A stretch of DNA of 64,000 nt from Comamonadaceae bacterium. GTDB taxonomy: Bacteria; Pseudomonadota; Gammaproteobacteria; Burkholderiales; Burkholderiaceae_C. The position numbers and the translations under genes are program-made. Shown here one piece after another: positions 39,417-42,577 of this stretch; the stretch's first letter is position 1, and every line of letters starts with the position of its first letter. Below the pieces are notes generated by a model. That model saw only the letters and a program-made list of their open reading frames with translations, did no database searches and had not been told where the DNA came from. The stretch is from assembly GCA_027484105.1 (NCBI GenBank), contig JAIXUG010000002.1:1-64000 (forward strand), read 5' to 3'.

Positions 39417-40190
39417 ATGAAAAAGCAAATGCTCAGCGCCGCCCTGGTGGCCATGTTGGTGGCGCCGGCCATGGCGCAAAACCTGGCCGTTGTGAATGGC
39501 AAGCCCGTGCCCTCTTCGCGCGTCAAGGCACTGCAACAGCAACTCGAAGCTTCCGGGCGCCCGGTGACACCCGAAATCATGGTCCAAATCAAGGAAGAGC
39601 TGATTGCCCGCGAAGTCTTCATGCAAGAAGCCAAAAAGCGTGGACTGGATGCCAGCGATGACTACAAAAACCAGCTGGAGCTGGCGCGCCAAACCATCCT
39701 GATCCGTCAGCTGTTTGCCGACTTCCAAAAGAAGAACCCTGTCACTGACGCCGACATCAAGGCCGAATACGACAAGTTCGTCAAAGAAAACAGCGGCAAG
39801 GAATACCGTGCCCGTCACATCTTGGTGGAAAAGGAAGACGAGGCCAAGGCCTTGATCGCTGACATCAAGAAAGGGGCCAAATTTGAAGACTTGGCCAGGA
39901 AGGTTTCAAAAGACCCAGGTTCTGGTGCCAATGGCGGCGACTTGGATTGGGCGGCTGCCGGCAGCTATGTGGCCGAGTTCTCGGACGCCATGGTCAAGCT
40001 CAACAAGGGTCAGATGACCGATGTGCCCGTCAAGAGCCAGTTTGGCTTTCACATCATCCGTGTGGACGATGTGCGTGATGCAGAGTTGCCCAAATTGAGC
40101 GATGTCAAACCCCAGATTGCCCAGCAACTGCAGCAGCAAAAACTCAGCAGTTTCCAAGAAGGTCTGCGCAGCAAAGCCAAGATCCAGTGA
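39417..40190 (+). CDS. Periplasmic parvulin-type peptidyl-prolyl isomerase
   Basis: 257 residues. A signal peptide (MKKQMLSAALVAMLVAPAMA, cleaved at AMA|QN) exports it. A SurA_N-like helical region (residues about 30-125) precedes a parvulin domain with RARHILVEKEDEA, DPGSGANGGDLDW and FGFHIIRVDD. The C-terminal helix (IAQQLQQQKLSSFQEGLRSKAKIQ) completes the PpiC/Cbf2 layout. It isomerises X-Pro bonds in folding envelope proteins. GAGGAAA precedes the ATG. It is followed by its own terminator, so it forms a single-gene unit. Confidence 0.93.
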   Translation: MKKQMLSAALVAMLVAPAMAQNLAVVNGKPVPSSRVKALQQQLEASGRPVTPEIMVQIKEELIAREVFMQEAKKRGLDASDDYKNQLELARQTILIRQLFADFQKKNPVTDADIKAEYDKFVKENSGKEYRARHILVEKEDEAKALIADIKKGAKFEDLARKVSKDPGSGANGGDLDWAAAGSYVAEFSDAMVKLNKGQMTDVPVKSQFGFHIIRVDDVRDAELPKLSDVKPQIAQQLQQQKLSSFQEGLRSKAKIQ

Positions 40191-40211: not shown

Positions 40212-40240
40212 AAACGCGACTTCGGTCGCGTTTTTGTTTT
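40212..40240 (+). terminator. Terminator of the parvulin gene
   Basis: AAACGCGAC (40212-40220), a TTCG tetraloop and GTCGCGTTT (40225-40233) form a perfect 9-bp stem. TTGTTTT follows. It begins 21 nt after the stop codon. Confidence 0.93.
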
Positions 40241-40256: not shown

Positions 40257-40332
40257 AAAAGGCTTGGGCGCGGGCTGGGGTTCAGAGGCGCTTCGCTTTG
40301 CCACATCACCCCATCCCGCGCCCAAGCCTTTT
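40257..40332 (+). repeat. Long hairpin element 1 with conserved 26-nt loop
   Basis: Arms 40257-40281 and 40308-40332 pair over 25 bp with one C/T mismatch. The loop is 40282-40307, beginning TCAGAGGCGCTTCGC and ending GCCACATC. The same loop occurs, reverse-complemented and with no mismatch, in element 2 at 40491-40516. The arms of the two elements are unrelated except for GGGG-pyrimidine / purine-CCCC next to the loop. Element 1 ends in a short T-run and could also act as a bidirectional terminator. It is intergenic, between the parvulin gene and rlhA. Confidence 0.88.
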
Positions 40333-40461
40333 TCGGGGCGTCTCTGGAGGGCGTCTCCCAAACTGTCCGAGCCTTCAGCCCCGCCATGTCTTGGCTAACC
40401 ACCAGCCGAAGGCGGCGCTAAATTTCACACCTGCACCAAAACCGGAACCCCGAATGTCCAC
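40333..40461. other. Spacer between the two hairpin elements
   Basis: 129 nt without a convincing gene. It contains a direct repeat GGGCGTCTC at 40336-40344 and 40349-40357. The rest shows no clear promoter or open frame. Confidence 0.5.
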
Positions 40462-40545
40462 GCCCTGAAGCGGTGGGCACTGGCCGGGGCGATGTGGCAA
40501 AGCGAAGCGCCTCTGAGCCCCGGCCAGTGCCCGCCGCTTCAGGGC
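40462..40545 (-). repeat. Long hairpin element 2 with the same 26-nt loop, inverted
   Basis: Arms 40462-40490 and 40517-40545 pair over 29 bp with a single G/T wobble. Loop 40491-40516 is the exact reverse complement of the loop of element 1. The arm sequence (GCCCTGAAGCGG...GGCCGGGGC) does not match element 1 outside the four G and the pyrimidine next to the loop. It sits 61 nt upstream of rlhA and just before its promoter. Confidence 0.88.
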
Positions 40546-40589: not shown

Positions 40590-40606
40590 TGGGATAATCC
40601 CAGCCC
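40590..40606 (+). promoter_or_regulatory. Extended -10 promoter of rlhA, probably leaderless
   Basis: TGG followed by GATAAT (40593-40598) forms an extended -10 element. The ATG lies 8 nt beyond, where transcription would start, and no Shine-Dalgarno lies between. The same 11-mer GGGATAATCCC appears before map. Confidence 0.55.
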
Positions 40607-42577
40607 ATGCAGCCTCACCACCTCGAACTTCTTGCCCCCGCCCGCACCTTTGACATCGGCATCGAAGCCATCAACCATGGCGCCGACGCGGTCTACATTG
40701 GCGGACCGTCTTTTGGGGCACGCTCCACGGCGGACAACTCGGTGCAAGACATCGCCAAGCTGGTGCAATACGCCCACCGCTTTCACAGCCGCATCTTTGT
40801 CACGCTCAACACCATCTTGCGTGACGACGAACTCGAAGCCGCGCGTCAACTGGCCTGGCAGTTGTATGACGCAGGCGTGGACGCGCTGATCATTCAGGAC
40901 ATGGGCCTGCTCGAAATCGACATGCCGCCCATCCAACTGCACGCCAGCACCCAGACCGACATCCGCACGCCCGAAAAAGCCAAATTCTTGCAAGACGCCG
41001 GTTTGAGCCAGATCGTGCTGGCCCGAGAACTCACGCTGCCGCAGATCAGTGCCATCCGTGACGTGATCGACACCGAGCGCACCGTGATCGAGTTTTTTGT
41101 GCACGGCGCTTTGTGTGTCGCCTACAGCGGCCAGTGTTTCATCAGCCACGCCCACACCGGCCGCAGCGCCAACCGGGGTGACTGCTCGCAGGCTTGCCGT
41201 TTGCCTTACGAAGTGAAAGACGCACAAGGCCGCATCGTCGCGCACGACAAGCATGTGCTGAGCATGAAGGACAACAACCAGAGCGAGAACCTGCGTGACC
41301 TGGTGGATGCAGGCATCCGCAGCTTCAAGATCGAAGGCCGCTACAAGGACATGGCCTATGTGAAGAACATCACGGCCCATTACCGCAAGCTGTTTGACGA
41401 AGTGCTGACCGAGCGCCCCGAGCTGGCTGCCGCCTCGCATGGCCGCGCCACCTTCAGCTTTGTGCCCGATCCGAACCAAAACTTCAACCGCGAGTTCACC
41501 GACTACTTTGTGCAAGGCCGCAAGGAAGACATCGGCGCTTTTGACACCCCCAAAAACCCCGGCCAGCCGATTGGTTGGGTCAGCAAGGTCACGCCTGAGC
41601 ACGTCGAGATCACCACCGACGACCCGGCCACCAAGCTGCACAACGGCGATGGCCTGTGCTACTACGACCTGCAAAAAGAGCTGGTTGGCTTGCAGATCAA
41701 CCGCGCCGAAGCGGCCAAAGTCAAAGGCGCTTGGAAGCTCTTTCCCAAAGACCCGATGAGCAGCTTCAAGGACTTGCGCCAAGGCGTGCAGGTCAACCGC
41801 AACCGCGACATGAGCTGGGTGCGCACGCTGGACAAAAAATCGTCCGAGCGCCGCATGAGCGTGTGGATGCAACTCGCGGAAATCGAAAGCGGTTTGCAAC
41901 TGACCCTGACCGACGAAGCCGGTCACACCGGAACGGCCGAGCTGGCCATCGCCTGGCAAGCCCCCAAAGACACGGGCCAAGCCGAGGACAAACTCAAAAC
42001 CGCTTTGGGCAAATTGGGCGACACCCTGTTTGAACCGCTGGATGTTCAACTGGCGCTGCAGCGCCCCTGGTTCGTGCCGCCCTCACAGCTCAACGCCCTG
42101 CGCCGAGACGCGGTGCAGGCGCTCGAAAATGCCCGCGCACAAGGCCTGCACCGCCTGCCGCGTGCGGTCCCGGTGCATCCGCCTGTCGCCTATCCCGAAG
42201 ACACCCTCAGCTATCTGGCCAATGTGTTCAACCAAAAGGCACGTGACTTTTATGCCAAGCATGGCGTGAAGGTCATTGCCGCTGCCTACGAAGCGCAAGA
42301 GGAGCTGGGCGAAGTCAGCCTGATGATCACCAAACACTGTGTTCGCTTCAGTTTGAGCCTGTGCCCCAAGCAAGCCAAAGGCGTGACAGGTGTGCAAGGC
42401 ACGGTGAAAGCCGAGCCCATGCAATTGATCAACGGCAAGGAAAAACTCACCCTGCGCTTTGACTGCAAGCCCTGCGAAATGCACGTGGTTGGCAAAATCA
42501 AGAAGTCGGTGCTCAACGCCGTGCCGGAAAGCCCGGTGCAGTTTTACAAATCACGGCCCGTACAAGGCCTGCACTGA
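40607..42577 (+). CDS. rlhA: 23S rRNA C2501 hydroxylation protein RlhA (U32 peptidase family)
   Basis: 656 residues, close to E. coli RlhA/YdcP (653). U32 motifs: LELLAPARTFDIGIEAINHGADAVYIGGPSFGAR at the start and EFFVHGALCVAYSGQCFISHAHTGRSANRGDCSQACRLPY, with the Cys cluster (four conserved cysteines) that may bind an Fe-S cluster. FKIEGRYKDMAYV is also conserved. The C-terminal domain includes FSLSLCPKQAKG and RFDCKPCEMHV. RlhA makes 5-hydroxycytidine at position 2501 of 23S rRNA. It is monocistronic; a probable extended -10 promoter abuts the start codon. Confidence 0.92.
   Translation: MQPHHLELLAPARTFDIGIEAINHGADAVYIGGPSFGARSTADNSVQDIAKLVQYAHRFHSRIFVTLNTILRDDELEAARQLAWQLYDAGVDALIIQDMGLLEIDMPPIQLHASTQTDIRTPEKAKFLQDAGLSQIVLARELTLPQISAIRDVIDTERTVIEFFVHGALCVAYSGQCFISHAHTGRSANRGDCSQACRLPYEVKDAQGRIVAHDKHVLSMKDNNQSENLRDLVDAGIRSFKIEGRYKDMAYVKNITAHYRKLFDEVLTERPELAAASHGRATFSFVPDPNQNFNREFTDYFVQGRKEDIGAFDTPKNPGQPIGWVSKVTPEHVEITTDDPATKLHNGDGLCYYDLQKELVGLQINRAEAAKVKGAWKLFPKDPMSSFKDLRQGVQVNRNRDMSWVRTLDKKSSERRMSVWMQLAEIESGLQLTLTDEAGHTGTAELAIAWQAPKDTGQAEDKLKTALGKLGDTLFEPLDVQLALQRPWFVPPSQLNALRRDAVQALENARAQGLHRLPRAVPVHPPVAYPEDTLSYLANVFNQKARDFYAKHGVKVIAAAYEAQEELGEVSLMITKHCVRFSLSLCPKQAKGVTGVQGTVKAEPMQLINGKEKLTLRFDCKPCEMHVVGKIKKSVLNAVPESPVQFYKSRPVQGLH

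Follow-up and report, generated by a model that had tools for sequence, protein, structure and literature searches.

We confirm that both long hairpins lying between a ppiC-type and an rlhA-type gene in the window, by which we mean the whole stretch of 64,000 nucleotides that was analysed, belong to a family of dispersed palindromic repeats found in freshwater Limnohabitans bacteria and in other Burkholderiaceae related to them. In this family the tip of the hairpin is near-invariant while the two sides of the stem have been rewritten in matching pairs, and the tip is therefore likely to be a handle for a protein. The reading that we prefer, and to which we give slightly less than an even chance, is that the window hairpins are copies of this family in which a trans-acting protein recognises the tip of the folded strand, the DNA hairpin being extruded or single-stranded. 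The features of the locus are as follows, R1 being a covariance model made from 47 selected sequences read on the strand whose tip begins with GAT (the GAT strand).

39417..40190, plus: PpiC-type peptidyl-prolyl isomerase gene, flanking
40212..40240, plus: intrinsic-terminator-like hairpin and T run after the ppiC-type gene (by eye); the elements lie downstream
40257..40332, folded strand read from minus: element 1 hairpin, 25-bp stem; R1 match of 90.2 bits at 40258-40331, minus
40282..40307, minus: element 1 tip, 26 nt, reading GATGTGGCAAAGCGAAGCGCCTCTGA on the minus strand
40333..40461, no strand: spacer of 129 nt between the two inverted elements
40462..40545, folded strand read from plus: element 2 hairpin, 29-bp stem; R1 match of 94.2 bits at 40467-40540, plus
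40491..40516, plus: element 2 tip, 26 nt
40590..40598, plus: promoter-like box TGGGATAAT just before the rlhA-type start (by eye); the elements lie upstream
40607..42577, plus: U32/DUF3656 gene, flanking, assigned by its Pfam domains; the name rlhA is that of the sequence-only reading

That reading, made before any comparison with other genomes, had placed here two hairpins with stems of 25 and 29 bp and with 26-nt loops that are exact reverse complements of each other, and all of these positions and lengths proved accurate. The arms of element 1 (76 nt; 40257-40281/40308-40332) are paired to 96% over 25 bp, those of element 2 (84 nt; 40462-40490/40517-40545) to 97% over 29 bp, and the pair are the two best among four short-range inverted repeats listed for the window. 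Chance hairpins can be rejected: the 23-nt core of the loop occurs twice in the window and in 0 of 100 shuffles, and the folding z-scores (-7.6 to -11.0 as RNA, -7.8 to -10.1 as DNA) were equalled in 0 of 200 shuffles.

The genome to which the window belongs (3.10 Mb in 29 contigs) holds 10 matches to the 23-nt core, all exact in a search allowing up to 3 mismatches. They sit on 9 different stems and include 3 close inverted pairs; the copies at the ends of contigs C8 and C23 have identical arms and thus may be one locus. R1 finds 12 elements in this genome, two of them with another tip. Among 100 sampled genomes (60 of the genus, including the own genome, and 40 of other families) the loop core is present in 33, all within the genus, and among 399 genomes of the family it is present in 10, six of which are outside the genus and carry it with 1-3 mismatches. 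A scan of named genomes returned at least 114 stretches, with Limnohabitans in the title for 51 of 80 among the matches listed; since that scan took exact matches only, loop identity within this set is biased. The covariance model reaches further, with matches in 51 of 80 genomes of the genus (E 0.1) and in 24 of 299 genomes of the family (E 0.001), which represent 13 of the 141 sampled Burkholderiaceae genera, the own one included; over 200 order-level genomes (E 0.0001) the own genome is the sole match. Three loci with elements of Limnohabitans classes (L043, L068, L073) come from records titled Akkermansia muciniphila (isolate HRSG-E13-bin-26), a title that is probably wrong.

From Limnohabitans and its near relatives we collected 166 distinct element contexts, which flank clustering groups into 17 locus classes. 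Elements measure about 76-100 nt overall, with a GC content of 0.57-0.78 in the model matches. Their stems are mostly 25-32 bp long, 29 being the commonest length; they differ between classes and recur within a class across genomes. Most classes are found at one and the same place in different species, and Limnohabitans showed no recent insertion. Where two canonical copies (tips with at most 2 mismatches) are close together in the fetched loci, they are inverted in 47 of 47 cases, with 97-209 nt between the tip starts.

The loop thus occurs elsewhere on other arms that are again complementary. This was the outcome of the check that the sequence-only reading had proposed for its idea of a conserved loop on variable, compensated stems, namely a search with the loop and any flanks followed by a comparison of the arms: there are many copies, and the arms differ yet stay complementary. 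The 47 sequences of the model were read on the GAT strand. Both partners have changed in 25 of the 30 modelled pairs, in 410 cells altogether, and the set has a covariation score of 0.753, whereas controls with slid partners score 0.079-0.131. Standard pairs fill 97.0% of the cells, a flattering value because this set was hand-picked (stems of 20 bp or more, taken in order of increasing mismatches, two 25-nt tips left out). A broader count gives 3796 Watson-Crick cells among 4201, from which nine hybrid, broken or N-containing elements (by hand), stem-cut-off failures and duplicates are omitted.

We disagree with the earlier description on one point: the arms of the two window elements are not unrelated, given that over their inner 59 nt the elements show 85% complementarity. 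Across the family, 12 to 17 of the 17 class consensuses have G in the left arm at positions 2-4, 8, 14-17, 21 and 29, counted from the loop, and the stems therefore appear to descend, through compensated changes, from a single pattern. The suggestion that each copy builds its arms from flanking sequence does not agree with this shared positional G pattern, which points instead to common descent with compensated drift. Some genomes of class 4 have quite different arms, each pair of which is still self-matching, and there are hybrid elements that indicate recombination between neighbouring copies. The hybrid L034 looks by eye like a deletion through similar arms, and L068 and L025 resemble it. 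Site-specific inversion at the loops was considered and dropped, as L034 retains both outer arms and one loop. In the polA-thrB gap (L091:3680-3775, L060, L130) there is also a partial third element about 70 nt from an intact one and in the same direction, with its left half replaced and a tip starting TTATT or TTGTT.

For the constraint on the tip we sampled the rlhA locus by its protein in 38 element-bearing genomes; it was present in 36, and the best 30 of these 36 matches to the window's protein hold 27 elements in 17 loci. Of these 27 tips, 26 are exact, one has two mismatches and none has 3-8, so that at this one locus tips are, with few exceptions, either perfect or lost. Over the 166 contexts the tip is changed in 17, and in one genome (G055) all three loops are changed. 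In orthologous copies the arms differ by 10-35% and the tip by 0-4%, in a set partly chosen by loop.

These numbers bear on the possibility that the family has no present function, being an old mobile repeat whose stems are kept by template-switch quasi-palindrome correction and whose tip is conserved because the copies are young or have been homogenised by conversion. Such a history would suit the finding that copies can be lost (the element is absent from 12 of 29 assessable rlhA loci), as well as the self-matching arms of class 4 and the hybrids left by recombination between neighbours. However, correction between arms leaves a near-invariant tip unexplained, the protein-anchored rlhA sample agrees with the contrast between arms and tip in orthologues, and the strand asymmetry described below suggests selection on one folded strand. 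In our opinion the absence of function is distinctly improbable. If no reader of the tip exists, the family would nevertheless be a clean natural case of palindromes staying palindromic.

Other tips exist as well. Outside the genus, R1 has 38 matches in 27 loci, two places being counted twice through overlapping loci. Their tips, read without any rule, have GAT...TGA in 34 of 38 (27 in register, 7 shifted); the remaining four have a GAA start, a TAGGA end and, in two cases, GAC...TTGA. By eye, the apex GCGNAGC (N being A, C or T) is present in 33 of the 38. Two further tip scans had the GAT...TGA rule built in; in the loci examined, long stems capped by GAT...TGA came only from the hairpin family, and six control cap motifs gave none. 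The subfamily tips include GATTTCAAAAAGCGAAGCGTATGA, GATTTCGCAAAGCGAAGCGCGTATGA, GATTTCTGCGCATTTGGCAGTATGA, GATTTGGCGAGCGAAGCGAGTATGA and GATTTGCTGGCGCGAAGCGACTGATGA, and several subfamilies can co-occur in one Limnohabitans genome. Kissing of complementary loops as a requirement was dropped, since in L136 the partner of a canonical tip is a tip of another kind.

The tip is predicted to be structured in itself. It would comprise, in order, tandem G.A pairs, a T.T, one pair changing from G-C to T-A and a second T.T; a short helix (GGC/GCC, CGC/GCG or CTG/CAG) would follow, then an A bulge, and the apex would be a C(GNA)G mini-hairpin. Two of the covarying pairs lie within the tip, one changing from G-C to U-A and the other from G-C to C-G, each in a single sequence. 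Mini-hairpins of the d(GCGAAGC) type, with a C(GNA)G apex, are unusually stable in DNA.

Which of the two strands folds can be addressed from the mispairs in the stems. On the TCAG strand, the 4201 stem cells contain 224 A.C and 39 G.T, and the stem scoring used in extracting the 166 contexts leaned the opposite way to this A.C excess. With symmetric scoring on the GAT strand, 27 elements with other tips gave 69 G.T against 3 A.C, and 113 canonical-like elements 180 G.T against 25 A.C, both counts resting on elements found by a G.T-tolerant scan. An A.C on one strand is a G.T on the other, hence the strand with the GATGTGGCAAAGCGAAGCGCCTCTGA tip behaves as the folded one, and the wobble indicates that it is this strand that folds. 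Transversion mismatches show an asymmetry in the same direction, a weaker one; a mutational share is thus possible, and a mutational strand bias possibly contributes to the asymmetry of the wobble.

Strand-specific pairing favours a single folded strand, but it is equally expected if RNA folds. We consider action at the RNA level a serious rival, although somewhat unlikely: the GAT strand would be transcribed and the duplex and its tip bound or cut by an RNA-binding protein or a double-strand RNase. The G.U-tolerant pairing on one strand would follow from this, as would the covarying pairs within the tip; the RNA fold is very stable (-78.2 kcal/mol for element 2), and the class 7 element, lying between two genes of the same direction, is probably transcribed. 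Against it, the GAT strand can be either sense or antisense with respect to the neighbouring genes, class 7 being an antisense case. The window pair also has a terminator on one side and the next promoter-like box on the other. In the three classes that were aligned (5, 7 and 8), conservation is poor in the stretches adjacent to the element, and no promoter-like block accompanies it. A known Rfam family can be rejected for the regions scanned, for the window region gave 34 matches, all below gathering scores, and 10 variant loci gave none at gathering score. Pairing of the loop with another RNA of the own genome was also dropped: outside the 10 elements the 16-nt core has three matches with 2 mismatches, against five for the reversed pattern.

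The genes beside the elements have no common function. They include thrB/polA, ppiC>rlhA, a pcaF-type thiolase, fabI with a lysine/arginine-type decarboxylase, GAPDH, an acyl-CoA dehydrogenase, a DNA ligase domain and others, and the gaps are divergent, convergent or same-direction, with elements in either orientation. An orientation independent of transcription, the lack of a linked promoter and the copies inside genes together favour a DNA-level element.

The same arrangement invites the thought of bidirectional terminators, mRNA stabilisers or transcription insulators between genes. The stems are indeed GC-rich and sit in intergenic gaps, and on the plus strand a short T run comes after element 1. 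Yet a separate intrinsic terminator is conserved just upstream of the class 5 elements, as one precedes the window pair, where the terminator-like feature after the ppiC-type gene recurs in many related loci; in the alignments of classes 5, 7 and 8 no T run follows the stem. Termination has no need of a fixed 26-nt tip, and some copies lie inside open reading frames. We hold a role of this kind to be highly improbable, and by the same features the elements differ from ordinary intrinsic terminators.

A regulator specific to rlhA, as the sequence-only reading had also considered, finds no support in the gap itself. The window pair sits after the ppiC terminator and before the promoter-like box, and GGGATAAT or close variants precede rlhA in related loci with or without elements; other copies of the family lie beside unrelated genes. 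In the 12 assessable loci without an element (L308 ends too early to tell), the gap is filled in various ways. By eye, L290, L296, L301 and L303 hold old arm pieces joined by deletion, and L279, L291, L293 and L298 hold quite different repeats instead, which leads us to reject the rlhA regulator. L284 and L294 have other GC-rich repeats, and the gaps of L282 and L302 are short and element-free. Several repeats unrelated to one another have landed in the ppiC-rlhA gap, among them tandem copies that contain CGTAGGTC...GTCGGACCTGAAGGC, or GTCACCCCCGACCTGATCGGGGGTCC.

Twenty genomes of the genus without the canonical loop yielded 7 rlhA orthologues, six with element-free gaps and one (L155) with a deletion scar; several of these genomes carry variant-tip elements elsewhere. 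The six element-free gaps could be a sign of mobility, though a weaker one, since they could also reflect loss. Element-free rlhA gaps are too diverged to place the exact ends of the element.

The best sign of mobility comes from copies inside genes, which resemble those of RPE (see below). In MmeI-type methyltransferase genes, variant elements occur in frame at two sites, one ahead of the GNPPF motif and the other behind the target-recognition half, the two in inverted orientation. Five homologues without elements run straight through, and two aligned ones have the first element only; the tip-coded peptide HTLRFLK is found in 32 of 120 MmeI-type homologues among the matches listed. The trmJ gene of L255 holds another in-frame copy inside a stretch of 75 residues, compared with 25 residues between the two matched parts in the solved TrmJ. 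Given these in-frame copies in MmeI-type and TrmJ genes, the hairpins look like a family of mobile repeats rather than a regulator of rlhA, and in-gene copies of this kind are a source of new protein linkers. The trmJ gene (L255:863-1858) apparently contains coding traces of three small repeats, the HTLRFLK hairpin together with SVRPELVEG and HSREGGNPE, which we take to be such traces too.

In the MmeI-type genes (L267, L268/L250, L253 and proteins P0001-P0120) the inverted elements bracket the half made of GNPPF and the target-recognition part. Of the 120 homologues 47 could be segmented, 17 with the first insert and 30 without. Among pairs with N-terminal identity of at least 0.7, the recognition domains are less than 0.4 identical in 37 of 136 pairs with the insert versus 6 of 271 without, the pairs not being independent; this divergence hints at module exchange. 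One may go further and speculate that these are mobile DNA hairpins of a new class: the tip would be their conserved identity and the stem only a handle, lineage-specific tips would be read by matching proteins, copies would stay perfect or else be deleted, and pairs in inverted orientation would flank modules open to exchange, such as the MmeI-type target-recognition half. As a whole we regard this as unlikely.

It is worth asking whether such a family has been described before. Searching the literature on small dispersed and palindromic repeats, we found no description of an architecture with fixed tip and variable stem in the papers covered, none of which prints any of four tip strings. The palindromic repeats known from bacteria are, as a rule, defined by their conserved stems. 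REP repeats and REPINs, which go with the Y1 transposase RAYT, are dispersed palindromes, often in inverted pairs, of which one strand is recognised, and REP stems are conserved. The hairpin family likewise consists of dispersed palindromes that are often paired and inverted; unlike REP, it conserves the tips and varies the stems, and its elements do not track a Y1 gene.

The nearest described repeats are RPE and BRE. RPE, in the account given in PMC2229807, are palindromes of 105-146 bp in Rickettsia that occur in intergenic regions and in frame inside protein genes. The hairpin family too is found in frame inside unrelated genes (MmeI-type, TrmJ), but at about 76-100 nt, in Burkholderiaceae, and with a conserved tip and free arms. 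BRE are described in PMC3110155 as repeats of about 90 bp (75-91 bp) and about 69% GC in the gaps and some coding sequences of Comamonadaceae and Bordetella; their function is given there as not known, and they are defined by more than 70% identity and form tandem head-to-tail arrays of variable number. Compared by description, size, GC content, taxa and the presence of some in-gene copies are common to both, and part of the hairpin family may already bear the BRE name. What sets it apart from that description is that all 47 of its close canonical pairs are inverted and that the arms differ; only the degenerate third copies of the polA-thrB gap lie in the same direction. The same survey of repeats (PMC2229807) mentions NEMIS/Correia (107-155 bp) and ERIC (127 bp), small palindromic repeats in and between genes for which RNA-level roles have been proposed, with RNase III for NEMIS and RNase E for ERIC. 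By that account they are small palindromes like the hairpin family, but larger and of other taxa.

How the elements might act, in the reading that we prefer, can be outlined. The family would have spread as a non-autonomous mobile palindromic element. The GAT-strand hairpin would be extruded or single-stranded, the C(GNA)G apex helping extrusion, and its tip would be the candidate site bound by a trans-acting protein. If the stem is needed only as a duplex, it may drift in compensated steps, through selection and perhaps also through template switching between the arms, and copies would often be lost by deletion. A fixed, structured tip on drifting, compensated stems suggests a reader of the tip of one strand that acts at many places; if such a reader were identified, it would add a new protein to those that recognise hairpins, and each genome would offer it about ten ready-made sites.

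The earlier proposal of a structured single strand read by a protein at its loop thus survives as a possibility, through the strand-specific wobble; no partner protein was found, the single candidate tested being the Y1 (RAYT-type) transposase. This candidate is rejected, because its gene is present in all 27 genomes tested, element-free ones included, and 10 Y1 loci contain no R1 match. Carriage by phages or plasmids was dropped as well; viral contigs have no exact match to two tip patterns, and the best matches to phages and plasmids extend over no more than 34% of the query. The Y1 gene of the genus has short palindromes such as TTTAATTGGG-ATCTGAC-CCCAATTAAA nearby in 5 of 8 loci (L272, L273, L274, L277, L278), possibly its own REP.
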